Origin: Loktanella atrilutea
GTDB taxonomy: Bacteria; Pseudomonadota; Alphaproteobacteria; Rhodobacterales; Rhodobacteraceae
Direction: 5' to 3'
Assembly: GCF_900128995.1 (NCBI RefSeq)
Contig: NZ_FQUE01000003.1
Coordinates: 62,001-126,000 of the forward strand
DNA length: 64,000 nucleotides
The notes under the pieces are model-generated. The model did no database searches and was not told the origin of the DNA. It saw nothing but the letters and a program-made list of their open reading frames with translations. This document shows, piece by piece, positions 12,964 through 62,365 of this stretch; position 1 is the first letter of the stretch; each line of letters opens with the position of its first letter. The position numbers were made by a program, and so were the translations under genes.

Positions 12964-13001
12964 GGGCATTCCCTGAAAGGTGTCGGATGCAGGCGGTGCG
13001 A

Positions 13002-13463
13002 TCAGGACGCCGCGGCGAAGGTCGCGGCGAGGATCCTTGTCAAAGCCTCTGCGTCATCCTTGGTAAAGGCGTCGGGCTGGTCGCTGTCGATGTCGAAGAC
13101 GCCCAGCAGGGTGCCCGCCCCGTTCCAGACCGGCAGGACGAGTTCTGACCGGGTGGAGGAGGCGCAGGCGATGTGGCCCGGAAAGGCGTCCACGTCGGGG
13201 ACGAGCTGGACTTGACCGGTGCGCGCCGCCGCGCCGCAGACGCCGCGGGAAAATGGGATCACGAGGCAGCCGTGGCCGCCCTGGTAGGGCCCGATCTTGA
13301 GCAGGTCCGGCCCCGTGACACGGTAGAAGCCGGTCCAGTCGAAGCGGTCGTCGGCATGATGCACCTCGCACGCCACGGTCGCCATGAGGGCCACGGCATC
13401 GGTCTCACCCTCTGTCAGGGCGGCGACGGTCTGCGTGAGCAGGGGATAATCGACATGTTTCAT
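13002..13463 (-). CDS. msrC: Free methionine-(R)-sulfoxide reductase (GAF domain)
   Basis: A 153-residue single GAF domain. The three cysteines of fRMsr are present at C66, C76 and C100 (HGCLV, GVCG, GHIAC). They are spaced exactly as C84, C94 and C118 of the E. coli enzyme, a constant offset of 18. The substrate-pocket motif KIGPYQG and the FPGHIAC stretch also match. The enzyme reduces free methionine-R-sulfoxide using thioredoxin. It is followed 38 bp later by homocysteine methyltransferase and then a VOC protein, together a plausible methionine-maintenance unit. Confidence 0.92.
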   Translation of the reverse strand: MKHVDYPLLTQTVAALTEGETDAVALMATVACEVHHADDRFDWTGFYRVTGPDLLKIGPYQGGHGCLVIPFSRGVCGAAARTGQVQLVPDVDAFPGHIACASSTRSELVLPVWNGAGTLLGVFDIDSDQPDAFTKDDAEALTRILAATFAAAS

Positions 13464-13699
13464 GGGTCCTGACCTAGCGCCTTATTCGCGCCTGAAAAAG
13501 CCCTGAAAGCAGCGGGCGCATGCCCATTTGCCGCCACGATTCTCGGGCAAGGAGGTTGCGTAGCTGCAAAAGCTTCAACGGCACCGCGCTTTCGAAGCCC
13601 CCACCCAGTAGCGCGGTGCCGGACCGGCCTTTCCAATTGTGCGATTGTCTTTCCCGCGGGAATGACCGACGTTTCGCCCGACGAACAGGGAGAGGCACG

Positions 13700-15277: not shown

Positions 15278-15289
15278 TACGCGGGCGGG

Positions 15290-15319
15290 GTCGCGCGCAC
15301 TTTTTCGTGATCGCGCGAC
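15290..15319 (+). terminator. Extended hairpin after the GGT-family gene
   Basis: Arms GTCGCGCG (15290-15297) and CGCGCGAC (15312-15319) enclose an inner CAC/GTG pair with a TTTTTC loop, 12 bp after the stop codon. It is a stable stem without a clear trailing U tract. It probably ends the upstream transcript or protects its 3' end. Confidence 0.5.
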
Positions 15320-15320
15320 C

Positions 15321-15342
15321 TTGGTCTGATGGATTTGACCAA
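15321..15342. promoter_or_regulatory. TTGGTC-N10-GACCAA inverted repeat before cytochrome genes
   Basis: A 6-bp inverted repeat with a 10-nt spacer lies 48 bp upstream of the cytochrome c' start. The half-sites resemble the TGGTC/GACCA cores bound by some GntR/FadR-type regulators, although the spacer is longer than usual for those. It may be an operator for the two cytochrome genes. No regulator gene is adjacent. Confidence 0.3.
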
Positions 15343-15389
15343 AGCTCCTGTAGCCTGTTCCCGGGAATGGTTCTGAACAGGAGACGGAC

Positions 15390-15869
15390 ATGGCACTTTT
15401 CAAGCGTTTCGGCACGGTTCTGGCGGGCACGGCCCTGATGGCGACGGCGGCCTTTGCGGCCAGCCACATGGATCCGGCCGCCGAGAAGGCGGTGAAGGCG
15501 CGCCAGTCGCACATGACGCTCTATGCCTTCAACATCGGAACGCTCGGCGGGATGGCGCAGGACAAGATGCCATACGATGCCGAAGCTGCCGGACGCGCGG
15601 CCGAGAACCTCGCCGCGCTCGCGAGCCTCGATCAGGCCGGCTATTGGGTCGAGGGCACGGATGCAGGCAGCATCGAGGGGACCAAGGCCAAGGCCGAGAT
15701 CTGGTCGGACATGCCGGAGTTCGAGGAACACATCGAGCAGCTTGCCACGGCGACCACGGCGCTGGCCGAAAATGCCGGCACCGATCTGGATAGCCTGAAG
15801 GCGTCCTTCGGGGATGTGGGCAAGGCCTGCGGCAGCTGCCACGAGGAATTCCGCGTGTCCGACAAGTAG
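15390..15869 (+). CDS. Class II cytochrome c (c'/c556 type)
   Basis: A 159-residue periplasmic haem protein. It has a signal peptide (MALFKRFGTVLAGTALMATAAFA), a four-helix-bundle-like body, and the class II haem motif CGSCH close to the C-terminus. Haem attachment near the C-terminal end is the hallmark of cytochromes c'. The early RQSHM segment offers a methionine that would make it a low-spin c556-type protein; if not used, a five-coordinate c' that binds NO is possible. The next gene, another cytochrome, starts one base after its stop. Confidence 0.9.
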   Translation: MALFKRFGTVLAGTALMATAAFAASHMDPAAEKAVKARQSHMTLYAFNIGTLGGMAQDKMPYDAEAAGRAAENLAALASLDQAGYWVEGTDAGSIEGTKAKAEIWSDMPEFEEHIEQLATATTALAENAGTDLDSLKASFGDVGKACGSCHEEFRVSDK

Positions 15870-15870
15870 G

Positions 15871-16764
15871 ATGCGTCGGGTCCTGACCGGGCTGGCGCTG
15901 GTGGCGCTTGTCGTGCTGGCGGGCGGGGCCGTGGCGACACGGCCCCAGCCGCTGGCATCCGACGCGCTGGACGGTCTGACGCCGGATGCAGGCCACGGGG
16001 CACTGGTCTATGCGGCGGCGGGCTGCGCGTCGTGCCACGCCGCAGCGGACGGCCCGGCGGATGTGTTGTCGGGCGGCAAGGCCTTCGTCAGCGCCTTCGG
16101 CACCTTCCATGCCCCGAACATCAGCCAGGATCCCGACCATGGCATCGGTGGCTGGTCTGATTTGCAAATCGCCGACGCGATCACGCAGGGTGTCGGCGCC
16201 GACGGCGCGCACCTGTATCCGGCGTTTCCCTACACGGCCTACCACAAGGCGGACCTGCAGGACGTGGCGGACCTGATTGCCCACCTGCGCACCCTGCCAG
16301 CCGATCCGACGCCCAGCCAGCCGCATGACCTGTCGTTTCCGTTCAACATCCGCGCCACGCTGGGGGTCTGGAAGGCGCTGTATCTGAAGGACGACTGGGT
16401 GATGGCAGAGGCGCCCTCGCCCGAAGTCGCGCGCGGTCGCTATCTGGTCGAGGCGCTGGGCCATTGCGGCGAATGCCATACGCCACGCGACGCGCTGGGC
16501 GGACTGGATCGCAGCGCGTGGCTGTCGGGGGCACCGAACCCTTCGGGCAAGGGACGGATTCCCAACATCACGCCGGGTGGGTTGTCATGGTCGGAGGGAG
16601 AGATCGCGGAATATCTGTCGAGCGGCTTCACCCCCGATTTCGACACGGCGGGGGGCGAGATGGCCGAGGTCGTCAAGAACACCGCGCAACTGACCGATGC
16701 GGACAGGGCGGCCATCGCCGCCTATGTCAAGGCGGTGCCGGCGGTGGAGGATCCGCCTAGTTGA
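15871..16764 (+). CDS. Dihaem cytochrome c
   Basis: A 297-residue exported protein with an N-terminal hydrophobic segment (LTGLALVALVVLAGGAV) that may serve as signal or anchor. Two class I haem motifs are visible: CASCH around residue 52 and CGECH around residue 205. APNISQD and IPNITPGGLSWSEGEIAEYL are typical of dihaem subunits that pass electrons from membrane or periplasmic dehydrogenases (alcohol, aldehyde or gluconate type). No dehydrogenase gene is next to it. It is almost certainly co-transcribed with the cytochrome c' gene (1-bp gap). Its 3' end overlaps hspQ by 8 bp. Confidence 0.88.
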   Translation: MRRVLTGLALVALVVLAGGAVATRPQPLASDALDGLTPDAGHGALVYAAAGCASCHAAADGPADVLSGGKAFVSAFGTFHAPNISQDPDHGIGGWSDLQIADAITQGVGADGAHLYPAFPYTAYHKADLQDVADLIAHLRTLPADPTPSQPHDLSFPFNIRATLGVWKALYLKDDWVMAEAPSPEVARGRYLVEALGHCGECHTPRDALGGLDRSAWLSGAPNPSGKGRIPNITPGGLSWSEGEIAEYLSSGFTPDFDTAGGEMAEVVKNTAQLTDADRAAIAAYVKAVPAVEDPPS

Positions 16765-17083
16765 GCTGGACGTGCAGGGGGTAGTGACCGTCCTCGAACG
16801 GACCGAAGAGGTCCGGCAGATCGGGATGGTCGACGGGTTCGCCGGAATAATCGGCGACGAGATTCTGTTCCGAAACATAGGCCACGTAGAAGCTTTGCTC
16901 GTTCTCTGCCAGCAGGTGATAGTAGGGCTGGTCCTTGGCCGGGCGCGATTCCTCGGGAATCGCCTCGTACCACGCGTCGGTATTCGAAAACATCGCGTCC
17001 ACGTCAAAGACCACGCCCCGGAACGGGTGCTTGCGGTGTCTGACGACCTGACCGAGATGATATTTCGCGCGCGTCTTGAACAT
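16757..17083 (-). CDS. hspQ: Heat-shock / hemimethylated-DNA-binding protein HspQ
   Basis: A 108-residue YccV-family protein (105 in E. coli). The typical core is KYHLGQVVRHRKHPFRGVVFDVD, then PYYHLLAE, FYVAYVSEQNLV and the HPDLPDLF tail. HspQ is a heat-shock protein reported to affect DnaA stability and to act as a Lon specificity factor. The start is at MFKTRAKYHLG; an in-frame upstream extension is not conserved in character. The ribosome site is weak (GGGGGT about 12 bases before). It converges on, and overlaps, the cytochrome gene. Confidence 0.93.
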   Translation of the reverse strand: MFKTRAKYHLGQVVRHRKHPFRGVVFDVDAMFSNTDAWYEAIPEESRPAKDQPYYHLLAENEQSFYVAYVSEQNLVADYSGEPVDHPDLPDLFGPFEDGHYPLHVQLN

Positions 17084-17301
17084 GGATGCAGATACCCCCG
17101 CAGTGTCATTAGACGTTTCCGGTCGGAAAAGTCCATATTCCAGCAGCCTGTACACCAGAAACAGTCTGTATGCACCCACCCCACGCCGATGTCATGTCGC
17201 AATCCGACTATTTCGTGATGACCGGGCGCACCTTAAGCGTTCACAAACGGGTCATTTCCGGCTAGGGTGGATAAAAATAAAAGACGAAAAGCGAGAGGCA
17301 T

Positions 17302-49622: not shown

Positions 49623-50102
49623 ATGACCCGACTTCTAGCCATCGTCCTCGCCCTTGGCGCGACACCGTTGTTGGCGCAGACCAACATCGATCTTGGCGGC
49701 ATCCGGGCCGACCCGAATGCGCCGGTCGAGGTGACGGCGGACAACCTGAAGGTCGATCAGGACACCGGCTCTGCCGTTTTCAGCGGCAACGTGAAGATTG
49801 GGCAGGGCGACCTGCGGCTGGCCGCGCCAGAAGTGCGCGTGACCTATGCCGCGGATAGCGGCGACATCACCCGCCTGCAGGCCAGCGGCGGCGTAACCTT
49901 TGCCACCGCAACCGAGGCGGCGGAGGCCGAGACGGCCGACTACAACCTTGCGGACGGACTGCTGCAGCTTGATGGCTCGGTATTGCTGACGCAGGGCAAG
50001 AGCGCGCTGTCGTCGGATTCGATGACCGTCAACCTGAACGACGGCACGGCGCAGATGTCGGGCCGGGTCAAGACGGTGTTCCAGCAGGACGGCAACAACT
50101 GA
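49623..50102 (+). CDS. lptA: LPS transport bridge protein LptA
   Basis: A 159-residue periplasmic protein with signal peptide (LLAIVLALGATPLLAQ) and the OstA-like beta-jellyroll (PVEVTADNLKVDQDTGSAVFSGNVKIGQGDLRL). It oligomerises to bridge LptC and LptD. Stop overlaps the lptB start (TGATG). Confidence 0.93.
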   Translation: MTRLLAIVLALGATPLLAQTNIDLGGIRADPNAPVEVTADNLKVDQDTGSAVFSGNVKIGQGDLRLAAPEVRVTYAADSGDITRLQASGGVTFATATEAAEAETADYNLADGLLQLDGSVLLTQGKSALSSDSMTVNLNDGTAQMSGRVKTVFQQDGNN

Positions 50103-50863
50103 TGCCCCGCGACGCCGGTGCAGAGACCGAGGTGGAGGCCGGCGGGCTGCGGGTCAGCAACCTGCGCAAGAGCTATCGCAAGCGCCCGGTCATCCGCGAC
50201 GTGAGCCTGCATCTGGGCCGGGGCGAGGTCGTGGCCTTGCTGGGGCCGAACGGGTCCGGCAAAACCACCTGCTTTTACCTGATCGCCGGCCTGATCACGC
50301 TGGAAGGCGGCCAGGTGACGGTGGATGGCGAGGACGTGACGACCCTGCCGATGTATCGCCGTGCCACCCGCGGGATCGGCTATCTGCCGCAGGAAATGTC
50401 GATCTTTCGCGGACTGACGGTCGAGGACAACATCAAGGCGGTACTGGAAATCGCTGAACCCAGCAAGAAGCGCCGGCGGGATCGGCTGGAACAGCTTTTG
50501 TCCGAGTTTTCGATCGAACACCTGCGCCGCGCCCCTGCCGTGGCGCTTTCAGGGGGTGAGCGGCGGCGGGCCGAGATCGCGCGCTGCCTTGCGGCAGGGC
50601 CGAAGTATGTGCTGCTGGACGAACCCTTCGCCGGTGTAGATCCGATCGCCGTGGCCGAAATCAGGCACCTCGTCGCCGATCTGAAGACCCGTGGCATCGG
50701 CGTGCTGATCACCGACCACAACGTGCAGGAGACACTGCAGATCGTCGACCGCGCCTACATCCTGAACGACGGCAAGGTCCTGATGAGCGGGACGACTGAA
50801 GAGGTCATCCGCGACGAGAACGTGCAGCGTGTCTATCTGGGCAAGGGCTTCCGCGTCATCTGA
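50102..50863 (+). CDS. lptB: LPS export ABC transporter ATPase LptB
   Basis: A 253-residue ABC ATPase driving LPS extraction with LptFG. Walker A is LLGPNGSGKTTCFYL, signature is LSGGERRRAEIAR, Walker B is YVLLDEPFAGVDP, and the switch His is in ITDHNVQETL. GYLPQEMSIFRGLTVEDN is typical of LptB. LptF and LptG are not in this window. Confidence 0.97.
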   Translation: MPRDAGAETEVEAGGLRVSNLRKSYRKRPVIRDVSLHLGRGEVVALLGPNGSGKTTCFYLIAGLITLEGGQVTVDGEDVTTLPMYRRATRGIGYLPQEMSIFRGLTVEDNIKAVLEIAEPSKKRRRDRLEQLLSEFSIEHLRRAPAVALSGGERRRAEIARCLAAGPKYVLLDEPFAGVDPIAVAEIRHLVADLKTRGIGVLITDHNVQETLQIVDRAYILNDGKVLMSGTTEEVIRDENVQRVYLGKGFRVI

Positions 50864-50870
50864 CCCGGCA

Positions 50871-50901
50871 TTGACAGACGCACGGTTGTGGCGCTGAATA
50901 T
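50871..50901 (+). promoter_or_regulatory. Candidate hpf-ptsN promoter
   Basis: A perfect TTGACA (50871-50876) with GAATAT 19 bp on (50896-50901) stands in the 216-bp gap between lptB and hpf. The spacing is longer than ideal. A GGGCG/CGCCC stem (about 50939-50953) further down could be an lptB terminator. The usual rpoN gene is absent from this gap. Confidence 0.3.
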
Positions 50902-51079
50902 GATAGATGAAACCAGCGCAATTCCATCGCATTGCTGACGGGGCGCCTGCGCCCGGCGGAAATGTTAAGCTTTTGGTAAAGAGCGCGGCTTCATCATTCC
51001 AGACGCATCACCGTGGAACCGGCAGCCAGATCGCTGCCTTGATCCGGTGTGCGTGAATACCAGCAGAACAGGAGAGATC

Positions 51080-51658
51080 ATGCGGTATCAGATCAGCGGA
51101 AAACAGATCGACATCGGCGCGGCGCTTCAGACCCACGTTGAAACCGAGATGGGCGAAACGCTGGCGAAATACGCCGGGCGCCCGACCGAGGCCTATATCG
51201 TCTTCTCCAAATCCGGGCACGAGCATGTGGCGGAATCCGTGGTGCACCTTTCCACCGGACTGACTGTGCAGGCCACGGGCAAAGACCCCGAGATCTATGC
51301 CGCCTTCGATGCTTGCTGCGAGAAAATGGACAAACAGTTGCGCAGATACAAGCGCCGGCTGAAGGATCACCAGCGTGATCGCCCCGACCCGGTTGAAGTT
51401 TCGGGCGGTGGGTCGTATATCCTTGCAGCAACAAAGGATGACAGCGACGAGGACGAGCAGGTCAGCGACGCACCGGTGATCGTGGCAGAGACGGAGGCAA
51501 AGATCCCCTCGATCTCGGTCAGCGAAGCCGTGATGCAGATGGAGCTGGCCAACAGTCACGTCATGGTCTTCCGGAACGAGAAACAGGGCCGCATCAACGT
51601 GGTCTACAAGCGCGACGATGGGAATATCGGCTGGATCGACCCGCACGACGCGGCCTGA
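51080..51658 (+). CDS. hpf: Long-form ribosome hibernation promoting factor
   Basis: A 192-residue protein. The N-terminal HPF/YfiA domain (MRYQISGKQIDIGAALQTHVE...MDKQLRRYKRRLKDH) binds the decoding centre. The C-terminal dimerisation domain (SVSEAVMQMELANSHVMVFRNEKQGRINVVYKRDDGNIGWIDP) drives 100S formation. An acidic linker with DDSDEDEQ joins them. GGAGAG precedes the ATG. ptsN follows after 30 bp. Confidence 0.95.
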   Translation: MRYQISGKQIDIGAALQTHVETEMGETLAKYAGRPTEAYIVFSKSGHEHVAESVVHLSTGLTVQATGKDPEIYAAFDACCEKMDKQLRRYKRRLKDHQRDRPDPVEVSGGGSYILAATKDDSDEDEQVSDAPVIVAETEAKIPSISVSEAVMQMELANSHVMVFRNEKQGRINVVYKRDDGNIGWIDPHDAA

Positions 51659-51688
51659 CCACCGAAGACGTGACACAGGGACGGATTG

Positions 51689-52153
51689 ATGCAACTGGCC
51701 GACATCCTCAAGCAAGGCGCCGTCAAGATCCTTGGCGGCTGCACGAGCAAGAAGCGTCTTTTCCACGATCTGGGTGCACTGGCCGAACAATCCTACCACA
51801 CGCCCGCCGGCGACGTGATCGATGCGCTGATCGAGCGTGAGGGTCTGGGTCCGACCGGCGTGGGGCATGGCATCGCCCTGCCCCACGCCCGCCTGTCAGA
51901 GGTCGACAAGGTGCACGGCATCTTTCTGCGGCTGGAGAAGCCGCTGAACTTCGACTCCGTCGACCGCCAACCGGTGGACCTGATCTTTGCCCTGCTCGCC
52001 CCGGAAGAAGCGGGGGTAGAACATCTGCGTGCGCTGGCACTGGTGTCGCGAACGATGCGCAACCCTGATATCTGCGCCAAGTTGCGGGCCAACAGCGACC
52101 CTTCGACCCTTTACGCGATCCTGACGGAAAACCAGTCGTCTCAGGCAGCCTGA
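51689..52153 (+). CDS. ptsN: Nitrogen-PTS EIIA protein
   Basis: A 154-residue EIIA-Ntr, the output phosphoprotein of the nitrogen phosphotransferase system, which regulates potassium transport and other processes. The phosphorylated His is H66 in GHGIALPHARL. Length and the DRQPVDLIFALLAPEEAG segment are typical. A TTG one codon earlier is in frame, but the ATG is preferred. It closes the lpt-hpf-ptsN row and converges on the sulfotransferase gene. Confidence 0.95.
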   Translation: MQLADILKQGAVKILGGCTSKKRLFHDLGALAEQSYHTPAGDVIDALIEREGLGPTGVGHGIALPHARLSEVDKVHGIFLRLEKPLNFDSVDRQPVDLIFALLAPEEAGVEHLRALALVSRTMRNPDICAKLRANSDPSTLYAILTENQSSQAA

Positions 52154-52181: not shown

Positions 52182-53618
52182 TCAGGTCCGCAGGGGACCG
52201 AAGCCGAAGGCTTCGTAGTCGCGACCGTAGGCGTCCTGCGCTGCCTGTTCCACCTGATCGTCATAGATCGACTCCAGACGCGCAGCCCAGGGGTCCGTCT
52301 GATCTGCCAGCGGCGGCATGGTCGTGCGCCCGATCTGGCCGGCCAGCCGCGCCAGATCGCCGCGCAGGCTGCTTTCCCGCGCAATGACATCCGCCACACC
52401 GAAATCGGCCATGCCCTGCAGCAGTGACAATTGCGTGGCCCAGGCGGCATCCGTGCGCACCGACGTCTGCGCAGAGAGGTTGTTCCGCAGGAACTTGAGG
52501 AAGGCGAGGAAGGCGGTGCGATGCGCCGTCATGTCATAGACGACGTCAGTCTCGGGCACTGCGCCGCCGTCGGGCACATCGACCCCATGGACCTTGCGCA
52601 GTGTCGCCCTGATCTCTGCAAAGCTGCCCTTGCCGCCGGCGACGATACGTTCGCAAAAGGCCGTATGCGCCCAGACGACCGGGTGCCGGACCACGGTGAA
52701 CTTGCGATGGCCGGGATGCTGGCGCAGCCAGTCGCGCAGCGTCTTCTGGCTGAACCCGGTTTGCAAGTCGGCCGCCGTCACCTGATCGAGGGCCGCCAGC
52801 CAATCCTGCACCGCAGCGTTCGGGCCGGATTTCAGCGGCATATATAGCAGCGGGCTCCGCGCAGCGGCGACGTAGGTCGGAATCAGCGGTCCCCGGCGGG
52901 GTTCGAAATTCGGCGTGCGCGACAGGTTGAATCTGTCCATCCGGGCCAGCGCCTGTTCCATTTGCGCGAAGTTGGCGACCTTGTCGGCCATCGGATCCGG
53001 ATTCTGCTTCTTCAGCTTCTTGTTCAGGCCGGTAATCTGGCTGTCGACGCCCAGCCATCGCACGAGGCCATTCATCACCGCCACATCCTGCAGATCCTCG
53101 TAGGCGACGTAGAACGCTGTCTGGCCGCTGCGCTGCAGGGTGTTCAGGATCAGTGTCTGAAAGGCCTGAAGGGCAGCCATGTGGGCCTCGAACTCGGCGG
53201 CATCGAAAGGAACCTGCTGGCTCTTGGCGTGGGTGACATTGGTCAGCTTCCACTGGCCGGTGGACTGCGCAATCTTCCAGCTGACGAAACTGTCGACGGG
53301 GTTGCGGGTCAGCACGATCTTGGCACAGCGCGGATCCGTCAGGGCGATGTCCAACACGCGGCTGTCATGGTCGTTGAAGAAGCGGAAGCCGTTCAGTCCC
53401 GGCGCCGCCTTGACCCGGTCGATCAGTGCCTGCGGATCGGCCTCTCGCTGCGGCTGGGTCAGGCCCAGCACGTCGCTGCTGTTGGGATAACCGATGAAAT
53501 GCGGGTTGAACGCCTCGCCCAGACAGGTGACGCCGTCGAACATGTTCAGGTTCGCTTCGAGGAAATTGGATCCTGTCCGCATTTCGGCGAAGACAATGAA
53601 GTAGTCGAATTTTGACAA
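52182..53618 (-). CDS. Sulfotransferase-family protein with two sulfotransferase-like halves
   Basis: A 478-residue protein. The N-terminal half starts FIVFAEMRTGSNFLE, a 5'-phosphosulfate-binding loop like that of Stf0/NodH enzymes, followed by IVLTRNPVDSFVSW as the 3'-phosphate motif. From about residue 245 a second unit begins (LLYMPLKSGPNAAVQDWL, then KFTVVRHPVVWAHTAFCERI), which looks like another, diverged sulfotransferase fold. It would transfer sulfate from PAPS to a glycan. Start is TTG, one base after the stop of the upstream glycosyltransferase, as the fold requires these first residues. Last gene of the polysaccharide operon. Confidence 0.8.
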   Translation of the reverse strand: MSKFDYFIVFAEMRTGSNFLEANLNMFDGVTCLGEAFNPHFIGYPNSSDVLGLTQPQREADPQALIDRVKAAPGLNGFRFFNDHDSRVLDIALTDPRCAKIVLTRNPVDSFVSWKIAQSTGQWKLTNVTHAKSQQVPFDAAEFEAHMAALQAFQTLILNTLQRSGQTAFYVAYEDLQDVAVMNGLVRWLGVDSQITGLNKKLKKQNPDPMADKVANFAQMEQALARMDRFNLSRTPNFEPRRGPLIPTYVAAARSPLLYMPLKSGPNAAVQDWLAALDQVTAADLQTGFSQKTLRDWLRQHPGHRKFTVVRHPVVWAHTAFCERIVAGGKGSFAEIRATLRKVHGVDVPDGGAVPETDVVYDMTAHRTAFLAFLKFLRNNLSAQTSVRTDAAWATQLSLLQGMADFGVADVIARESSLRGDLARLAGQIGRTTMPPLADQTDPWAARLESIYDDQVEQAAQDAYGRDYEAFGFGPLRT

Positions 53619-53619
53619 T

Positions 53620-55317
53620 TTATTTGACCAGATAGGGTTTGCGTGGCTTGGGCGCCTGGTTCAGCGGCGGCGCCGCAACAGGGAAATCGCCCATGAGGTA
53701 GGGGTGCATCCCCTGATTCTTGAGGTTCTGCAGAAACTGTCCGAAGCCGCCGAGGTCGTGCATGCGCGGCACTTCGGTCAGGCCGCGACCGGTCTTGCCA
53801 GTCATGTCATCGACGATGGTCTGCAAGACCTCCATCGGTGATTCGACGAAATCGGCCATCGTCCAGATGCGGACGCGCGCCTTGGCCCAAGGCGACCGCA
53901 GGGCCGACAGATGCTCGTTCTCGACCCGCTGAAGGTGGGCCGCCGCGTTGCGCAGGTCGGCAAAGTTGCTGTTCGACCGATAAAGCGGCACCGCCCAGCA
54001 CCCCGAGATGACGAAGATCTGCGCATTGGGATCCTTGGCAATCATCCAGTTGATACCCTGGGTATCGCGCGGCCCGAATTGAAATGCCTGCCGCTTGCCG
54101 CGCGTGTTCCAGATCAGGTTCGTCAGGAACATCTGCGCGTTCAATTCGCGTTGAGCGGCATTGTCGGACAGGGCTCCGTTCACGATGGTCTGGCGGCCGT
54201 CGAACTCTACCCGATCGGGTGCGTAAAGGTGCCCGTGGACCCGTGCGCCGGTCATCTTGGCAAGCCAAGGCTCGAAATTCTCGAACAGCTCGGTAAAGCC
54301 TTCGAAGACGGAATAGGGCTCTGCCGTGATTCCGTTGCCCCAGTCGGCGTTGGGCCAGCGGCTTTGCATGTAAAGGCCGGGCCGCCCCTTGGTCCGGCGA
54401 TCGACGGCCTTGGAGAAGATGCGGTCGATCTTGCCGGGATTGGGCTCTGCCCCCTTCATCATCGCCGCATCCTCGACCAGGAAGGCCTGATACAGGCGAT
54501 CGGCGCGCGGCCAGATCTTTCGCGCGACAAAGCAGTCCGACCGCCGCAGCAATTGCAGGTGATCGTCGTAGAAGATATGCGGCTTGCCTTGGAAATCGAA
54601 CTTCGACAGCGTTAGCGACCTGCTTTCGATGTTGAAGGAATAGCTGCGGGCGAGGGTCTGAAAGTAGCTTTCATCCGGGATCCAGACCCTGGAGAAGTAA
54701 CGATCGTAAAGCGGCCGGTCCGGATCCTGCAGGATCGCCGACAGCGTCTGCCGCGTCAGGCACCACCACTGCGACCCCATGTGCGGCAGGATGCCGTCCG
54801 GAATCCGGCGCCGGAACCGCAGGCGGCGCTGCAAGGATACGTAGCGGTCGAAGAGAAAGCGGTTCTTTCGCCAAGAAAAGGGGAACCGGAGGGTGAATCG
54901 TTCGTGATCGAGGCCGCCGACCGTCCACGGCACATCCGCCGTCGTGGCGCTTTCGATGAAATCCGTGCGTGGCCGGCTGTCGAGGTAGCGGCGCAGCTCG
55001 CGCACCGGGCGCAGCGGCATGCAGGACCCCGAGGCAAGGAAGACATGGCGCACCTGCGGGAACGATGCCAGCATCAGCTCGCAGGCGGACTGCGTGCCGG
55101 CGACGATGCCCCATGTCCCCCATTCGCACCGGTGACGGTGGCTGAACTTTACCTCTGACAGATCACCCAACGCCTCGCGAAAGCGATCGAACGTTTGGGT
55201 CCGGACATTCTTGTCGACGTGGATCACGACCGGGCAGCCCCCGTCGACCCAGTGGCGCGCCAGCTGCTCTGCCCGGTCGAAGTCCGTGTGGACCAGCATG
55301 ACGACACCGAAGGTCAC
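53620..55317 (-). CDS. GT14-like (core-2/I-branching type) glycosyltransferase with extra C-terminal domain
   Basis: A 565-residue protein. Residues 1-260 match the Branch/GT14 fold: FGVVMLVHTDFDRAEQLA, PVVIHVDKNV, WGTWGIVAGTQSACELML, FLASGSCMPLRPV and MGSQWWCLTR. Such enzymes add GlcNAc or xylose in beta linkage. Residues 270-565 form a second domain (MQSRWPNADWGNGIT, QMFLTNLIWNTRGK, MHDLGGFGQFLQNL) that I know only as a Rhodobacteraceae-specific extension without known function. The start is GTG overlapping the upstream stop (GTGA). A longer in-frame extension is rejected. Confidence 0.8.
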   Translation of the reverse strand: MTFGVVMLVHTDFDRAEQLARHWVDGGCPVVIHVDKNVRTQTFDRFREALGDLSEVKFSHRHRCEWGTWGIVAGTQSACELMLASFPQVRHVFLASGSCMPLRPVRELRRYLDSRPRTDFIESATTADVPWTVGGLDHERFTLRFPFSWRKNRFLFDRYVSLQRRLRFRRRIPDGILPHMGSQWWCLTRQTLSAILQDPDRPLYDRYFSRVWIPDESYFQTLARSYSFNIESRSLTLSKFDFQGKPHIFYDDHLQLLRRSDCFVARKIWPRADRLYQAFLVEDAAMMKGAEPNPGKIDRIFSKAVDRRTKGRPGLYMQSRWPNADWGNGITAEPYSVFEGFTELFENFEPWLAKMTGARVHGHLYAPDRVEFDGRQTIVNGALSDNAAQRELNAQMFLTNLIWNTRGKRQAFQFGPRDTQGINWMIAKDPNAQIFVISGCWAVPLYRSNSNFADLRNAAAHLQRVENEHLSALRSPWAKARVRIWTMADFVESPMEVLQTIVDDMTGKTGRGLTEVPRMHDLGGFGQFLQNLKNQGMHPYLMGDFPVAAPPLNQAPKPRKPYLVK

Positions 55318-56345
55318 GCCCAGTTGCCCTTGGACATGATCCCCAGAATTTCCAGCTGGCGCCAGTTGATGTAGCGTTCGGACCACTTGCACCACAGGTC
55401 CGGATTGGCCTCGTCGCCGGCGGCATAGGCGCGGTACTCGACGCTGTTCGCGTAATGCTGGCCGCGGGAAAGCTCCTCCTTTGCCTTGTCGGTGAAGGTC
55501 GACAGGAACTTGGTATGCAGCAGCACGCCGCTGGCCTTCTCTCCACCCCATTCGTCGTAGACAAGGTTCAGGCCGCGCGGCAGCAGCATGTGAGTGCTGC
55601 TGACGTAGGCATACTTGCGGTCCCACTTGACCAACGGCACCTTGTTCAGGGCAGGGGCCCGGTCGGGTGCAGCGGCAAAGAAGGCCCGCATGCGGGGGCC
55701 ACCCCGGATCCACAGGTTGCCGAACTGAGGATTGCGGTGGATCACGTAGTTGCCGCTGTCGAACCATTCCGCGATCCGCAGCGGGTCGCTGCCCCGCCGG
55801 TAGGGCGTATCGTCGAGCCTGCCCTTGGGATACATATCCAGCAGCATGGCGCCGAAGGACTTGATCGAGGACGCGTCCAGCCAGTCGGTCAGGGCGCGCA
55901 GGGGCCGCGTGTCGCAGAACGGATAGACCAGCAACTCGTCCGGGTCGACGACCAGCGTCCAGTGACCGTGGGCATACTTGCGCTGCAGCCAGTTCAGCCA
56001 ATCGACGCCGAAACGCGCCCGTTTGTAGCTCGCTTCGGCGTGAAACAGGCTGACGTCGGGCTGATCCTTCAGGTAGGCGGCCGCGCCGTCGGTGCTCGCA
56101 TTATCCACCATGATGAAATGGTTCACGCCAAGCTTGCGGTAATATTCCAGAAAATACGGCAGCCGCACGTCTTCGTTGCGGAAAGTGGAAAAAACGAGGA
56201 TGTCGTCGGGTCTGATCGCGCCCGTCCGGTCGGCGATGACCGAAAGCTCCCGTCGTTTGCGGAACGCGCGGACCAGCCAGCGGCGTCGCTGCAACCTAAG
56301 CCTATAGGACCGCCAGATCCGCACCACTACCCCTACGACTGCCAC
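55314..56345 (-). CDS. Glycosyltransferase family 2/92-like
   Basis: A 343-residue protein. After a basic leader (YRLRLQRRRWLVRAFRKRRE), the GT-A domain shows FSTFRNEDVRLPYFLEYYRKLG, HFIMVDNASTDG, and the DxD-like LVVDPDELLVY. Later YVSSTHMLLPRGLN and LLHTKFLS follow the Glyco_tranf_2_4 pattern. Sugar and acceptor are unknown; it acts on the cytoplasmic face. The start is GTG, 20 bp after the GT4 gene. A short frame beginning with AGGAA-spaced ATGs in another frame overlaps this start and makes it less certain. Confidence 0.82.
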   Translation of the reverse strand: MAVVGVVVRIWRSYRLRLQRRRWLVRAFRKRRELSVIADRTGAIRPDDILVFSTFRNEDVRLPYFLEYYRKLGVNHFIMVDNASTDGAAAYLKDQPDVSLFHAEASYKRARFGVDWLNWLQRKYAHGHWTLVVDPDELLVYPFCDTRPLRALTDWLDASSIKSFGAMLLDMYPKGRLDDTPYRRGSDPLRIAEWFDSGNYVIHRNPQFGNLWIRGGPRMRAFFAAAPDRAPALNKVPLVKWDRKYAYVSSTHMLLPRGLNLVYDEWGGEKASGVLLHTKFLSTFTDKAKEELSRGQHYANSVEYRAYAAGDEANPDLWCKWSERYINWRQLEILGIMSKGNWA

Positions 56346-56365
56346 TCATCATCGGCCGGTTCCTG

Positions 56366-57556
56366 TCAAAGATTCGCTAAGACGGTCCTGAAATGCGCCG
56401 ACCAGACCGGCGGCGAAAACGCGGGCCGGGGATCTGCCTGTGATGACTGCAGCAACCTCTTGATTTCCTTTTCCCAAAGATAGCGATCTTGGGTGTCGGC
56501 GTAAACGGGCCAGTTGCCCAGCAATTCTCGGCTGGCCGGCAGATCGGCGCAGACGACCGGCGTGCCCAGCGCTGCGGCCTCCAGCGGTGGCAAACCGAAT
56601 CCTTCGGCCAGCGACGGAAACAACAGCGCCGTGGCGCTGCGCAGCAGGGCAGCGACGGCGCCGTCGTTCAGGCCGGCGACCTCCCTCACATGGGGCACGC
56701 CGGCATCGAGCCTGTCGAAGACCGCCGCGTTGTTCCAGCCGCGGCGGCCGCAGATCAGAAGGTCGGGTGCGCCCGGGCCCCAGTCGTCCCAGATATCCAG
56801 CAAAAGCGCATGATTCTTGCGTGGCTCGATGGTGCCGAGGATCACGAAATAGGGGCGCAGCGGCATCAATCCGGGCGGAATGTCCTCTGGCACGGGCCGC
56901 GGCTTATCGATTCCCAGATGCGCGGTGATGATAGGGGGCAAGCGCCCGACGCGCCCGAGGTGGCGCGTGACGTCTGCGGCGCAGGCGTCGGAGGTGCAGA
57001 TCAGCAGGTCCGCAAAGCTTTGCGCGACCCGAAGCTTCGCAGCGAAGCGCCCGGCAGTGCCTTCGCGCTGCAGGTCCGGCCAGTCGAGGGGAATCGTGTC
57101 GTGGATCATCACGGCGATCCGCGCGTCTTTTTGCGCCCTCACCGCCCGGCAGACGCGGGCGGTCAGGTTGCTGTGGCCCACGTTGATATAGGTGAAACCC
57201 GCTGGCACCCGTCGCCGCAGCAGTCGCCGCAGACCGCGCCGCCCCCCGCGGCCGATCGCGTGCCGCCGCACGAGGCTTTGTCCCAGTCGCGCCGCGGGGG
57301 TCAGGCGTCGGTTGAGACGCGACAGCAGGTCTGGCCTGGGAAATTCGCGGGTCGCGAAGCACTGGCCCAGTGCCAGAAGGCCCAGACGGTCCAGGATGAC
57401 GAACCCAAGCGCGGTCCGGCACAGCCCATAGACGGGTGTAGCGCCGTCAGCCGTCAACGCCTGAAGGTAGGCCAGTTCGACACGGTCTACGCCCGTGGCG
57501 ACCTGACCCGCCCGCGACGCCAGCCGGCTGACGTCGATGAGGCGCGCAGACCCCAC
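56366..57556 (-). CDS. Glycosyltransferase family 4 (GT-B)
   Basis: A 396-residue GT-B enzyme. The C-terminal half carries PYFVILGTIEPRKNHALLLD, RSATALLFPSLAEGFGLPPLEAAALGTPVV (the E-x7-E motif of retaining GT4 enzymes) and CADLPASRELLG. The N-terminal half opens LIDVSRLASRAGQVATGVDRVELAY, as in bacterial mannosyl/rhamnosyltransferases. The start is GTG six bases after the galU stop. The donor is unknown. Central member of the polysaccharide operon. Confidence 0.87.
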   Translation of the reverse strand: MGSARLIDVSRLASRAGQVATGVDRVELAYLQALTADGATPVYGLCRTALGFVILDRLGLLALGQCFATREFPRPDLLSRLNRRLTPAARLGQSLVRRHAIGRGGRRGLRRLLRRRVPAGFTYINVGHSNLTARVCRAVRAQKDARIAVMIHDTIPLDWPDLQREGTAGRFAAKLRVAQSFADLLICTSDACAADVTRHLGRVGRLPPIITAHLGIDKPRPVPEDIPPGLMPLRPYFVILGTIEPRKNHALLLDIWDDWGPGAPDLLICGRRGWNNAAVFDRLDAGVPHVREVAGLNDGAVAALLRSATALLFPSLAEGFGLPPLEAAALGTPVVCADLPASRELLGNWPVYADTQDRYLWEKEIKRLLQSSQADPRPAFSPPVWSAHFRTVLANL

Positions 57557-57562
57557 CGGGCG

Positions 57563-58456
57563 CTATTGCGCCGCGAGGCGCTGACCCATCACATCCTGAA
57601 GGTATTGCCGGAACTCGCCCTGCAACTCCGGCCGTTGAAGCGCAAAGGCGACGGTGGCCTGCAGATAACCGGCCTTGGACCCGCAATCGTAACGCTGCCC
57701 GTCGAACTTGTAGCCGAAGACATTGCGGCCCTGCGCAATCTCCATCGCGATGGCGTCGGTCAACTGCACCTCGCCCCCCGCGCCGCGTTCGACGTTGTTG
57801 AGGTTCTGAAGCACGTCCGGGGTCAGGATGTAACGTCCGATGACCGCGAGGTTGGACGGTGCCGTGCCGGCGGCGGGTTTCTCTACCATCCCCCGGACCT
57901 TGGCGATCGGACCATTCTCGCTCTCGACGTCGAGGATGCCATAGGCAGAGGTGCGGTCGGCCTCGACCTCCATCGCGGCGACCATGGCGCCCCCGGTTTC
58001 GGCATAGGCTTCGACCATCTGCGCAAGGCAGGGGCGGTCGGCTGCGATGACGTCGTCGGGCAGCATGACGGCAAAGGGTTCGTCGCCGATCAGCCGGCGG
58101 GCGCACCAGACGGCGTGGCCCAGACCCATTGCCTTGTGTTGACGGATGTAGGCCACGGCACCACTGTCCATGTATGTGCTTTGCAGCACTTCGAGCAGGC
58201 TGTCCTTGCCCGATTCGCGCAGCGTACGCTCCATCTCCGGCGAGTGGTCGAAATAGTCTTCCAACGCGGATTTACCGCGAGCGGTGACGAAGATGAATTC
58301 CTTGATCCCGGCTTCGCGTGCCTCGTCGATAGCGTATTGAACGAGGGGACGGTCGACGAGGGTCATGATTTCTTTCGGAACCGACTTGGTTGCCGGCAGG
58401 AATCGCGTTCCCATCCCGGCCACCGGAAAAACCGCCTTGGTGACTTTACTGCGCAT
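57563..58456 (-). CDS. galU: UTP-glucose-1-phosphate uridylyltransferase
   Basis: Makes UDP-glucose, the precursor for surface polysaccharides. 297 residues. TKAVFPVAGMGTRFLPATKSVPKEIM is the nucleotide-binding signature, FAVMLPDDVI the metal/UTP motif, and EKPAAG / YILTPDVL / FDGQRYDCGSKAGYL follow as in GalU. ATG with GAGG upstream. A 114-bp gap to the upstream GT2 gene could hold an internal promoter. Confidence 0.96.
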   Translation of the reverse strand: MRSKVTKAVFPVAGMGTRFLPATKSVPKEIMTLVDRPLVQYAIDEAREAGIKEFIFVTARGKSALEDYFDHSPEMERTLRESGKDSLLEVLQSTYMDSGAVAYIRQHKAMGLGHAVWCARRLIGDEPFAVMLPDDVIAADRPCLAQMVEAYAETGGAMVAAMEVEADRTSAYGILDVESENGPIAKVRGMVEKPAAGTAPSNLAVIGRYILTPDVLQNLNNVERGAGGEVQLTDAIAMEIAQGRNVFGYKFDGQRYDCGSKAGYLQATVAFALQRPELQGEFRQYLQDVMGQRLAAQ

Positions 58457-58570
58457 AATGAGCCTCGTCCGTTTCAAATAATACGAATTGCACTGCGCGC
58501 GGTTTACGCGACCATTGTGAATTAACCAAGGCGGAACCGGTTTGGATCCATCCTGCATGGAAAACTCTTG

Positions 58571-59785
58571 CTAAGCCGGCAGACGCTGCGCCTGTTGACG
58601 CGCCACTTCATGGCTGACCCGAGCGTTCGCGCGCCATGGCTGGAACAGGCGCCCTGACCGGTCCGACTTGCCGAACTGTCCGCCGGTCTGTTCCCAGACC
58701 CCGTCGGCAGTGAACCGGACACGGTGGAACAGGGCCGTGGGGGACAGGATGTAGAGCGAGGCGATGGCGCCGTCGCGGACCGCTTGCGCCGCCGCCGCAC
58801 GGCCCGCACCGGCCCGCCATGAACGGGCCAGAATGACGCGATGGGGCCGCGGACCCGTCGGAAATCGCAGGAATGGCGGCGGCGCAGGCAAGACAGGGTG
58901 CTGCGCCACCGGGCGCGCCATGCCATCCTCCCAACCGGCATCGAAGGTGGCCAGCAGCCGGTGAACGTCGCCCGGCATCACTTGTCCCGCCACCATCATT
59001 CGCAGCAGCCGACCGCGCTGCTCTGCCCGCCCTGCCCAGGGCGTCACGCGGCCCGAGGGGCCATGCTTGCGCAGAAAGACAGCAAGGCTGGCGCCGACCT
59101 GGAACAGCGTGCGCGGCACGCGGTCCGCCCGCCGGCGCGGACTGGCGGCAAAGCCGTGGTGGACCTGCGCCAGCGGCACGATCGCCGTGGCTGCACCGAT
59201 CTGCGCCAACCGCATGTTCAGGTCGGTCTCGTCGAGGTAGAAGGCTAAGGCTTCGTCGAAGCCGCCCTGATCCAGCAGCACGCTGCGCCGCACCGCCATG
59301 TTTGTACCCTCGGTCTTGACCGCGCGCCCCGGCCCACCCGCCAGCAGGGTCGGCCTGACGCGATCGACCTCGACCGGCGTCGTCTGTGCGTCGGCGAAGA
59401 CCAGCCGCGCGCGCCACTGGAAGTCGATCCCGTTGCGTCCGCGCACGAAACCGCCTGCCGCCGCGACCGCCGGATCGTCGAAGGGTGCGGTCAAGTGTGA
59501 CAACCAGCGCGGTTCCGGGACCGCATCGTCGTCGATGAAGGCCACGACATCGCCTGCCGCCAGCGACAGGCCTGCGTTCCGCGCGGCGCTGATGTTCGGT
59601 ATCTCGAAGGCGACCGCCTTGATTGCCTCTGTCAGACCGCTGGCCGCGATGGCAGGAAAGGACACGGCATCGGCCACAACGATCACCTCACAGTCCGGGT
59701 GGTCGATCTGGCTGAGGCCGAGGAGACAGCGTTGTAGGGCGTCAGGGCGGCCGTTGCTGACAACGATCACACTGACGCGCGCCAC
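58571..59785 (-). CDS. Glycosyltransferase family 2
   Basis: A 404-residue protein with a GT-A inverting domain at the N-terminus: VSVIVVSNGRPDALQRCLLGL, ISAARNAGLSLAAGDVVAFIDDDAVPEPRWL (DDD metal site), TNMAVRRSVLLDQGGFDEALAFYLDETDLNMRL. The last 130 residues form an unknown arginine/proline-rich domain. The start is GTG one base after the kdsB stop, so translation is probably coupled. The sugar is unknown. Confidence 0.87.
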   Translation of the reverse strand: MARVSVIVVSNGRPDALQRCLLGLSQIDHPDCEVIVVADAVSFPAIAASGLTEAIKAVAFEIPNISAARNAGLSLAAGDVVAFIDDDAVPEPRWLSHLTAPFDDPAVAAAGGFVRGRNGIDFQWRARLVFADAQTTPVEVDRVRPTLLAGGPGRAVKTEGTNMAVRRSVLLDQGGFDEALAFYLDETDLNMRLAQIGAATAIVPLAQVHHGFAASPRRRADRVPRTLFQVGASLAVFLRKHGPSGRVTPWAGRAEQRGRLLRMMVAGQVMPGDVHRLLATFDAGWEDGMARPVAQHPVLPAPPPFLRFPTGPRPHRVILARSWRAGAGRAAAAQAVRDGAIASLYILSPTALFHRVRFTADGVWEQTGGQFGKSDRSGRLFQPWRANARVSHEVARQQAQRLPA

Positions 59786-59786
59786 G

Positions 59787-60587
59787 TCAGTCAGCCCCCA
59801 TCTCTGCCAGCATCGCCTCGATCCGGGGCACGTCCTCCGGGTTGTTTAGTTCCCAGAATTGCCGGCCCTTCGCGTCAACCTCGACACACAGGACCGGTCG
59901 CGCCTGTTCAAGGAACCGCAGCTGCTCCAGCCCCTCCAGCGTTTCCAGAGGACCGATGGGCCATGTGCCGTATGCGCGCAGGGCATCGGGGCGGTAGGCA
60001 TAGACGCCGACGTGGTGAAATACGGGCGTGTCGGCATCGTCGGGATAGGTCTTGCCGGTGTAGGGGATGACCTCTTTCGAGAAGTAAAGGGCATTGCGCC
60101 GTTCCCCGAAGACCGCCGTGGTGCCGCCGACACGACCCGCGCGGCGATCTTCCAGAAATCCGCGCAGCGCGCGGCCCTCGGTCCGCAGGACCGGTGTCGC
60201 AACATCGACGTCGCGCCGTGCACGCAGCCCGGCGACGAGGTCGGAGATGAACCAGGCCGGTGTCAGCGGCGCATCGCCCTGCAGGTTCACCACGATCTCG
60301 AACTTCGCGCCCATGGCGTCGATGGCGGCGGCGCAGCGTTCGGTGCCGTTGCGGCAGGATTCGGGGGTCATCACGACCTCTGCCCCGAACCCTTGCGCCG
60401 CGTCCCGGATGCGGTCGTCGTCGGTGGCCACGACGACGCGGTCGACACCCGTCACCTGCATCGCCGCATCCCAGCTGCGGCGAATCAGGGTCTTGGCCTC
60501 GCCGCTTGCGCCCCGGAGGGCGACGAGCGGCTTGCCGGGATACCGGGTCGAGGCATAGCGGGCGGGTATGACGATCAGGACGGACAT
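59787..60587 (-). CDS. kdsB: CMP-Kdo synthetase (3-deoxy-manno-octulosonate cytidylyltransferase)
   Basis: A 266-residue cytidylyltransferase that activates Kdo for LPS core or for the Kdo linker of group 2-like capsules. IPARYASTRYPGKPLVAL is the CTP-binding signature; VVVNLQGDAPLTPAWFI and PYFHHVGVYAYRPDAL-like FHHVGVYAYRPDAL follow the KdsB pattern. VNLQGDAPL has APL where classic KdsB shows EPL/EPF, a small departure. ATG overlaps the cysQ stop (ATGA). Being inside a capsule-type operon, it may be a capsule-dedicated KpsU-like copy. Confidence 0.9.
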   Translation of the reverse strand: MSVLIVIPARYASTRYPGKPLVALRGASGEAKTLIRRSWDAAMQVTGVDRVVVATDDDRIRDAAQGFGAEVVMTPESCRNGTERCAAAIDAMGAKFEIVVNLQGDAPLTPAWFISDLVAGLRARRDVDVATPVLRTEGRALRGFLEDRRAGRVGGTTAVFGERRNALYFSKEVIPYTGKTYPDDADTPVFHHVGVYAYRPDALRAYGTWPIGPLETLEGLEQLRFLEQARPVLCVEVDAKGRQFWELNNPEDVPRIEAMLAEMGAD

Positions 60588-61387
60588 CAGGCGCGCTGCA
60601 ATTCGACGCCGGGGGCGTAGGCAATGAAGAACGGGTTGGCATAGCCGGCCTTGCCGTAGACGAGCGGTTCATGCGTGTCGAAGCGCACGACATGGCCACC
60701 GGCGCCGGTCAGCACCGCATGGCCGGCGGCGGTGTCCCATTCCATCGTGCGCCCGAGGCGGGGATAGAGGTCGGCCTCTCCCGTCGCGATCAGGCAGAAT
60801 TTCAGCGAGGATCCGGCGCTCTTCATGTCCTTGACGAGGTAGAGGTCGATATAGTCATCCGTAGCCTGATCGCGGTGGGATTTCGAGGCGACGACCATCA
60901 GCGCGTTGTTGTCGGGATTGGTCGTAACCGCCAACGGTTCCACCTCGCCCACGGTGTCCTTGGCAAAGGGACCGGTCTCCTCGACCGACTGGCCGTCGGC
61001 GGTGGTATAGAACAGACGTCCCTTGGCTGGGGCATAGACAATGCCGCGCACCGGTTCGCCGTCGACGACATAGGCGATATTGACCGTGAAATCGCCGCGC
61101 CGCTTGATGAATTCCTTGGTCCCGTCCAGCGGGTCCACGATCAGGAAGGTGCTGGCCTGCACGCTATGGGACGACGCCTGTTCTTCCGTCACCAGCGCCA
61201 CGTCGGGAAACGCTTCGCGCAGACCCGCGCTGATGATGGCATCGGCGGCTTCGTCGGCGGCAGTGACCGGGCTGTCGTCGCTTTTCGACCGCACGTCGAA
61301 GTCGGGGGAATCGTAGATCTCCATGATCCGGTCGCCGGCTTCCAGCGACAGTCGGCGCATGACCTGCGTCAGCTTTTCGAAATCCAT
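60587..61387 (-). CDS. cysQ: 3'(2'),5'-bisphosphate nucleotidase
   Basis: A 266-residue inositol-monophosphatase-fold enzyme that removes the 3'-phosphate from PAP, the inhibitory by-product of PAPS-dependent sulfation and sulfate assimilation. LIVDPLDGTKEFIKR and GRTMEWDTAAGHAVLTGAGG are the metal-site motifs, and SPVTAADEAAD the lithium-sensitive loop. First gene of an operon that ends in a sulfotransferase, so it probably clears PAP during glycan sulfation. It diverges from the permease gene over 156 bp. Confidence 0.94.
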   Translation of the reverse strand: MDFEKLTQVMRRLSLEAGDRIMEIYDSPDFDVRSKSDDSPVTAADEAADAIISAGLREAFPDVALVTEEQASSHSVQASTFLIVDPLDGTKEFIKRRGDFTVNIAYVVDGEPVRGIVYAPAKGRLFYTTADGQSVEETGPFAKDTVGEVEPLAVTTNPDNNALMVVASKSHRDQATDDYIDLYLVKDMKSAGSSLKFCLIATGEADLYPRLGRTMEWDTAAGHAVLTGAGGHVVRFDTHEPLVYGKAGYANPFFIAYAPGVELQRA

Positions 61388-61543
61388 GGTCTCACTTTCT
61401 CCGTAATTGCGGGGTACACACTGAATTGATTGAAAATCAGCCCTTTCCGCCGTTATGGTGCCGTGTCAGGCGAACGGCAAGATTTTCGTTTCAGGGTCGC
61501 GACAGGTTTGCGGTTTTCGGGTCAGACGACAGGACGACGACAG

Positions 61544-62365
61544 ATGTTTCAGGTTCAGACCCGCAAGTCGCACTCCCGCACCGCGCTGGGAATGCTGGAA
61601 TTGATCTACCACAGCGCTGTCCGCGACATCCGCAAGTCGCACCGCAATCCGCTGATGGGTCTTGTGCTGAACGTCTTCCAGTCCGTGCTGATGATCGCTT
61701 CGTTCTATGCCATGTTCGCGCTGCTGGGCATGCGCGGTGCCGCGGTGCGGGGCGATTACCTTCTGTACATCATGTCGGGTATCTTCCTCTACATGGCGCA
61801 TACAAAGGCGATGAGCGCCGTCGTCGGGTCCGAGGGGCCCGCCTCTGCCATGATGCAGCACGCCCCGATGAGCACAGCAATCTCGATCTGCGCCTCGGCG
61901 CTGTCCTCGCTTTACCTGCAGTTCCTGTCGATCACCGTCGTGCTGTTCATTTACCATGTCACCTACAAGCCCGTGGTGATCGAAAATCCCATCGGCGCCA
62001 TGGAGATGCTGATGATCGCGTGGTTTTCAGGGGTTGCGATCGGCACGGTATTCCTTGCGATCAAGCCCTGGGCGCCAGAGGTCGCGCGCATGGGCAGTTC
62101 GATCTATGGCCGGGTCAATATGATCGCATCGGGCAAGATGTTCCTTGCCAACACGCTGTCTGCGTCGATGCTGGCGATCTTCGACTGGAATCCGCTGTTT
62201 CACTGCATCGACCAGCTGCGCGGCGACGTGTTCCTGAACTACAATCCGCATTTCAGCTCTCCGACCTACCCGCTTTATGTTGCAATCGTGATTTTGATGC
62301 TGGGTCTGCTGGGCGAGTTCTATACCCGCCGTCGCGCATCGGTAAGCTGGGGCGCAGCCAACTGA
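61544..62365 (+). CDS. ABC-2 type polysaccharide export permease (KpsM-like)
   Basis: A 273-residue inner-membrane permease with six helices. HSAVRDIRKSHRNPLMGLVLNVFQSVLMI opens it and FYTRRRASVSWG closes it, resembling KpsM/Wzm-type subunits for capsule or O-antigen. The cognate ATPase (KpsT-like) is not in the window. The ATG at 61544 is chosen because AGGA lies upstream and the preceding 38 residues are unlike any permease. The 156-bp region shared with cysQ must hold the operon promoters. Confidence 0.8.
   Translation: MFQVQTRKSHSRTALGMLELIYHSAVRDIRKSHRNPLMGLVLNVFQSVLMIASFYAMFALLGMRGAAVRGDYLLYIMSGIFLYMAHTKAMSAVVGSEGPASAMMQHAPMSTAISICASALSSLYLQFLSITVVLFIYHVTYKPVVIENPIGAMEMLMIAWFSGVAIGTVFLAIKPWAPEVARMGSSIYGRVNMIASGKMFLANTLSASMLAIFDWNPLFHCIDQLRGDVFLNYNPHFSSPTYPLYVAIVILMLGLLGEFYTRRRASVSWGAAN

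Follow-up and report, generated by a model that had tools for sequence, protein, structure and literature searches.

A candidate synthesis-and-permease locus of a dispersed, probably sulfated capsule system in the Rhodobacteraceae

Gene content of the locus

The window analysed here, a stretch of 64,000 nucleotides from Loktanella atrilutea, belongs to contig C30, in a genome of 4.2 Mb, and carries eight minus-strand genes together with a divergent KpsM-like permease, all of them open reading frames present as placed, and in the order stated, by an earlier sequence-only reading of this DNA. The permease (61544..62365, plus strand, its start read as 61544) is a 273-aa orphan KpsM-like ABC-2 protein with weak family matches: its ABC2_membrane score is 26.3 bits against a cut-off of 26.9, and its nearest NCBIfam models, VexB and KpsM, both fall far below their cut-offs. 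An intergenic region of 156 bp (61388..61543; median 133 bp over 92 loci) lies between the permease and cysQ (60587..61387), which encodes a 3'(2'),5'-bisphosphate nucleotidase and scores over the TIGR01331 cut-off. There follow, all on the minus strand, kdsB for CMP-Kdo synthetase (59787..60587; NF003950 over cut-off), a GT2 glycosyltransferase (58571..59785), galU for UTP-glucose-1-phosphate uridylyltransferase (57563..58456; TIGR01099 over cut-off), a GT4 glycosyltransferase (56366..57556), a GT2/92-like glycosyltransferase of family PF13704 (55314..56345), a 565-aa protein that joins a GT14 (Core-2/I-branching, xylosyltransferase-like) domain to DUF5927 (53620..55317), and a 478-aa sulfotransferase (52182..53618), the transferases being assigned by family search and, for the sulfotransferase, by profile comparison as well. 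We read the galU start as ATG 58456, which leaves a gap of 114 bp to the GT2 gene, and the start of the GT14-DUF5927 gene as GTG 55317, which gives a 4 bp overlap with its upstream neighbour; galE is absent from the window locus. Beyond the sulfotransferase end, and converging on it from the plus strand, are LptA-like, LptB-like, S30AE/hpf and PTS EIIA (called ptsN here) genes (window 49623-52153), and the gene after the permease is one that we take, from its own sequence, to be dnaK, such that the locus is flanked by lptA/lptB-hpf-ptsN and dnaK.

The sulfotransferase stays under the Pfam cut-off of 22 bits with both PF03567 (21.7 bits) and PF00685 (19.8 bits), and its profile matches PDB 9vki ('LPS sulfotransferase NodH') over positions 7-154 with an E of 1.3e-12. 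The alignments used (A1 and A2) comprise the window protein and 49 of the 97 usable relatives, every second one being taken. The N-terminal RTGSN motif is present in all 50 aligned sulfotransferases, and R105 and S113 are invariant; we take these motifs to have a PAPS-binding role. A Sulfotransfer_2 match at E<=0.01 occurs in 30 of the 50 members and covers residues 292-473 in the window protein, the one protein for which the matched range is known, and this Pfam result weakly suggests that the C-terminal part is Sulfotransfer_2-like. We make no claim of an internal duplication, since the match between the N-terminal and C-terminal halves (E 0.00025) is out of register at the PAPS motifs. Genes for PAPS supply and for PAP removal are both present in the genome: there are two APS kinase genes, both over cut-off and away from the locus, and, of five matches to the family, only the window cysQ passes the CysQ cut-off. 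Read from the enzyme motifs, sulfation is likely.

The gene upstream of the sulfotransferase had been called GT14-like, and the GT14 assignment stands (the 'Branch' domain, PF02485, with human xylosyltransferase 1, XylT1, as the nearest match at E 9.5e-8), but the gene encodes a fusion with DUF5927 (PF19349, 530 bits) and not a GT14 domain alone. Its E216 is invariant in the alignment, and this Glu is presumably the catalytic base of GT14. In a profile comparison DUF5927 matched the N-terminal domain of the sulfotransferase at E 0.0011 (probability 20%), and smaller alignments gave E 0.0004 and 0.002, while ten other profiles gave 0.069 or worse and two reversed controls 0.061 or worse. It could be imagined that DUF5927 is a divergent sulfotransferase-like domain, that the fusion would thereby link sulfation with a xylosyltransferase-like step, and that, with the separate sulfotransferase, it would yield a glycosaminoglycan-like sulfated capsule common to most genera of the family and varied by the swap of one glycosyltransferase module; we consider this quite unlikely. 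The profile likeness, on which alone such a fold rests, is no more than a lead and is weakened because a Pfam scan at E<=5 found a sulfotransferase match in none of the 50 GT14-DUF5927 members and because the 84 aligned columns begin just past the RTGSN motif and so leave out the PAPS loop. The C-terminal half of the sulfotransferase had no match to DUF5927 (E 0.069). DUF5927 was absent from the open-licence literature as searched; SPO0035 of Ruegeria pomeroyi DSS-3, which may be a member, appears in one list under the name Core-2/I-branching protein, with no function given in the part of that source consulted (PMC8319176).

Conservation, transcription and an exchangeable module

Of the 198 genomes of the family, 162 have a DUF5927 match, as against none of 14 control genomes, and a class-level draw of 289 genomes returned it in four, all of the same family and the window's own genome among them. 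At least 595 stretches in a named collection encode a relative of GT14-DUF5927; the titles of the 80 records kept are Rhodobacteraceae, genera that we take to be its members, two 'Paracoccaceae bacterium' and one undetermined Pseudomonadota MAG. Among these 80 records, the nearest relatives come from Loktanella strains, at 82% identity. Of the 161 other genomes with a match, 98 supplied flanks, approximately one per genus, spread over the score range with long contigs favoured. In this neighbourhood comparison, which the sequence-only reading had called for as a check, most of the 98 show the gene order and strands of the window, more than chance would give. Over the resulting 99 loci, own included, tblastn at E<=1e-5 detected GT14-DUF5927 and the PF13704 glycosyltransferase in 99, the sulfotransferase in 98, cysQ and kpsM in 93 each, galU in 91, dnaK in 80, kdsB in 59, GT4 in 55 and GT2 in 54. 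The lptA-lptB-hpf-ptsN-like genes stand at the sulfotransferase end in 86 to 91 of the 99 (at E<=1e-10, lptB in 91 and ptsN in 87). Six loci are without cysQ and kpsM: two of them (L049, L053) are truncated where the contig stops, and the other four (L092, L112, L115, L117) are rearranged; these last, four of 97 uncut loci in which the sulfotransferase and glycosyltransferase part is not beside cysQ-kpsM, count against a capsule reading.

The gene set had been described as looking dedicated to one glycan, which the genome does not support. It has no PF02348 gene other than the locus kdsB and no second clear copy of either kdsB or cysQ, and both genes probably serve the whole cell. Their presence at the locus is therefore weak evidence, and their position is suggestive only. 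Whereas the linkage of cysQ with the sulfotransferase part holds in most relatives, kdsB is missing from 40 of the 99 locus stretches (two of the 99 being cut by contig ends), and all 22 searched genomes with no kdsB at the locus have a PF02348 gene elsewhere, a candidate kdsB. The lack of second copies and these PF02348 genes, together with the gap that sets galU apart from the genes upstream, could be taken to mean that there is no functional unit at all and that the single-copy housekeeping genes cysQ, kdsB and galU came by chance to lie beside a glycosyltransferase cluster, the more so as ptsN and dnaK, neighbours with no relation to it, likewise stay in place (87 and 80 of the 99). However, cysQ (93 of 99) and galU (91 of 99) are retained at the locus somewhat more often than either neighbour, and we regard a chance assemblage as distinctly improbable.

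Nor can a single transcript from cysQ to the sulfotransferase, as had been proposed, be taken as proven; it is doubtful because the gap before galU, 114 bp in the window, is conserved. Its median in relatives is 134.5 bp after GT2 (n=54), 191 bp after kdsB (n=23) and 182 bp after cysQ (n=11), where the other joints have medians of 3 bp (sulfotransferase-GT14), -4 bp (GT14-PF13704), 45 bp (PF13704-GT4), 6 bp (GT4-galU), -4 bp (GT2-kdsB), 3 bp (GT2-cysQ) and -1 bp (kdsB-cysQ), gaps outside -100 to 400 bp having been excluded. A second transcription start at galU is likely. No sigma-70-like promoter was found in the pre-galU gap, a scan that means little in this bacterial group, and no shared motif stood out upstream of galU, the commonest 7-mer occurring in 12 of 91 cases.

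The middle of the locus exists in two versions. Type A, found in 53 of the 99 loci, that of the window included, has the GT4 and GT2 genes as its module beside one gene of the core family PF13704, and type B, found in 40, has two PF13704 genes and neither GT4 nor GT2; a further locus is of mixed type, two are truncated and the remaining three show the core alone. Both types may include galE (32 of 53 type A and 21 of 40 type B loci). On a dnaK+cysQ+kpsM tree of 77 labelled genomes the distribution of the types takes 20 changes, where shuffled labels take 25.1 on average and 14 of 500 shuffles need 20 or fewer; 9 of the 19 printed branch supports are below 80, and the number of swaps is therefore rough. 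When trees were built gene by gene for 68 genomes, the PF13704 gene alone clearly tracked type, with 12 changes (shuffled mean 22.2, minimum 15), a result that may be affected by L051, L052 and L124, in which the copy used does not adjoin GT14; the other six genes need 18 to 22 changes against shuffled means of about 22. The pattern resembles that of a capsule locus whose ends are conserved and whose middle varies.

Scattered export genes and a candidate capsule system

A search for export genes elsewhere in the genome, which the sequence-only reading had proposed as a check, did recover KpsT, KpsE, KpsD/Wza, KpsC and KpsS genes, and with them went the idea of a self-contained pathway, since the genes for the ATPase, the adaptor, the outer-membrane export protein and the Kdo transferases all lie at other loci. 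There is no single contiguous kps cluster; the parts are on C30, C35 and C29. Contig C29 has a KpsS-like and a KpsC-like gene, both over the PF05159 cut-off, with a Poly_export/SLBB protein (KpsD/Wza-like) directly before KpsC. TIGR01010 matches two KpsE-like genes, on C35 (E 4.2e-56) and C36, both below the curated cut-off. The C35 gene (G000:C35) forms a kpsT-kpsE pair with no kpsM beside it, near genes that we read as mreB, pbp2 and rodA. The same arrangement recurs in relatives: among kpsE stretches (12-18 kb) from 20 of them, 17 DUF5927-positive and three negative, kpsT is adjacent in all 20, and no kpsM was detected in any at E<=1e-6 with either the window or the C36 query. Seven of the 20 stretches have rodA or pbp2. 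The exporter and Kdo-transferase components expected of a group 2-like system are found, namely KpsM with KpsT (the permease being below cut-off and the partnership inferred), KpsE with KpsD/Wza, and KpsC with KpsS.

A few features of these regions deserve mention in their own right. After kpsE comes a gene with BON and mechanosensitive-channel domains (L088 10262-11548), which is near kpsE in seven of the 20 relatives' stretches. In the window's own genome kpsS and wza-kpsC are ~7 kb apart (L042/L043, G000:C29:106913-118560), and LysR, TctC/B/A, shikimate-dehydrogenase-like and HPPD-like genes lie between them; in all 40 DUF5927-positive relatives compared, kpsS and kpsC share one contig at a distance of <=5 kb, and the wider spacing is apparently an insertion. 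A further PF05159 capsule gene on C30 (~327 kb; L044 7191-8405) is set apart from the rest of the capsule genes and adjoins one for a peroxiredoxin.

Contig C36 (L087, G000:C36:40000-58000; 7777-17299) carries a second KpsM-T-E set, its permease a distant relative of the one in the window, together with a sulfotransferase and large glycosyltransferases of its own; this is possibly a strain-specific capsule. It could be argued that the window KpsM works with this second exporter rather than with the C35 kpsT-kpsE pair. The C36 set, however, has its own KpsM, which is 23% identical to that of the window over 231 aligned residues, all 20 relatives have a C35-type pair lacking kpsM, and kpsE tracks the locus; this makes a C36 partnership highly improbable.

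With the C35 query, kpsE was found at E<=1e-50 in 160 of 162 DUF5927-positive genomes and in 8 of 36 negative ones (Fisher p 1.3e-24, in a test that ignores relatedness), the two positive exceptions (G098, G131) having weak matches only. For kpsC at E<=1e-100 the counts are 40 of 40 positives tried, out of 162, against 10 of 36 negatives, and for kpsS 40 of 40 against 9 of 36, these 40 positives having been chosen from the better assemblies. Searched for in the negatives only, kpsM was detected at E<=1e-39 in five of 36, each with kpsE. Some of the negatives are assembly gaps: in G119 the GT14 gene is cut by the contig end, and in G142 and G122 the contigs end before its expected place. G148 is a real exception, which keeps kpsM, kpsE, kpsC and kpsS with no DUF5927 match and in which the locus is present from kpsM to galE and is then followed by a foreign gene. 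G008 has kpsC and kpsS, and G063 kpsC, both in the absence of a strong kpsE. Three further negatives (G068, G069, G096) have strong kpsE, kpsC and kpsS and no kpsM at E<=1e-39. These three, like G148, G008 and G063, speak against the capsule reading, as do the below-cut-off family matches of the permease, KpsE and the sulfotransferase. The relatedness of the negatives is uncontrolled, and the co-occurrence may stem partly from shared ancestry.

Another reading, which we hold to be rather unlikely, is that the operon decorates lipopolysaccharide, in its core or O-chain, with sulfated sugars, KdsB serving LPS and KpsM being a mere neighbour. The sole kdsB copy and the 'LPS sulfotransferase NodH' name of the nearest solved sulfotransferase fit such a role, and the LptA-/LptB-like transport genes beside the locus both favour it and count against a capsule. 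Set against this are the phyletic coupling to kpsE, kpsC and kpsS and the presence of kpsM at the locus in 93 of 99 cases. The reading that we favour, and that we think probably correct, is that the locus is the synthesis-and-permease part of a dispersed, ABC-transporter-dependent (group 2-like) capsule system, widespread in the family and probably sulfated. This would agree with the sequence-only reading of a surface-glycan locus with sulfotransferase, glycosyltransferases and ABC permease, though the system is broader and less self-contained than that reading had it; the co-occurrence of kpsE, kpsC and kpsS with the locus backs it.

The system would then reside in three places: the window locus, the kpsT-kpsE pair, and kpsS with kpsD/wza-kpsC. 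KpsS and KpsC would place a Kdo-containing linker on lipid, using CMP-Kdo from KdsB, a Kdo linkage being plausible from the presence of these two proteins. GT14-DUF5927, the PF13704 transferase and the exchangeable module (GT4 and GT2, or a second PF13704 gene) would extend the chain from UDP-sugars, as their families suggest; the sulfotransferase, to judge by its motifs, would use PAPS to sulfate the chain in the cytosol, and the PAP formed would be cleared by CysQ. The chain would be exported by the window KpsM with KpsT, KpsE and the KpsD-like protein, a partnership that we infer because kpsM is missing beside kpsT-kpsE and because the genes co-occur.

Comparison with known systems

Should this interpretation hold, most of the genera sampled, in a family plentiful in marine waters, carry a core capsule system, probably sulfated, and its scattered parts could escape cluster-based capsule finders. 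It would also offer a testable candidate surface receptor for phages or for partners such as algae, as well as new sulfotransferase and GT14/DUF5927 enzymes. We found no open-licence paper joining roseobacter, sulfotransferase, capsule and glycosyltransferase, none joining Rhodobacteraceae, sulfated polysaccharide export and capsule, and none joining Rhodobacter, capsule, phage, sulfotransferase and receptor. Rhodobacter capsulatus presumably belongs to the same family as the window genome. The capsule of its RcGTA receptor cluster (rcc01081-01086) has been shown to bind a phage-like particle, and the idea that it is the same system was set aside by the names of its export genes, wza, wzb and wzc, as given in the part of the source available (PMC10218006).

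The kind of system itself has precedents, and the scattered layout with its swappable sugar-transferase module looks new. The group 2 capsule of Escherichia coli shares homologues of KpsM, KpsT, KpsE, KpsD/Wza, KpsC and KpsS as well as a variable glycosyltransferase region in a conserved frame; unlike it, the present system has no single kps cluster and no second dedicated CMP-Kdo synthetase, and it does have a sulfotransferase. The sequence-only reading knew of no described system with this exact gene set; as a kind of product, an ABC-exported sulfated capsule is described in Vibrio, to go by the portion of the paper accessible (PMC11641403). Vibrio sp. KMM 8419, the closest described case, makes a sulfated CPS of solved structure for which ABC transporter export is proposed. 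It shares with our case sulfotransferases, a PAPS supply, and kpsT, kpsDME and kpsS genes, all proposed to serve that polymer; its authors, in the same portion, state that a comparable locus occurs in no public genome (PMC11641403). Whereas in that strain everything lies in one 80-gene cluster with second copies of cysC, cysN and cysD (PMC11641403, same portion), here the parts are dispersed, there is no PAPS-making gene at the locus, and the system is widespread in one family.
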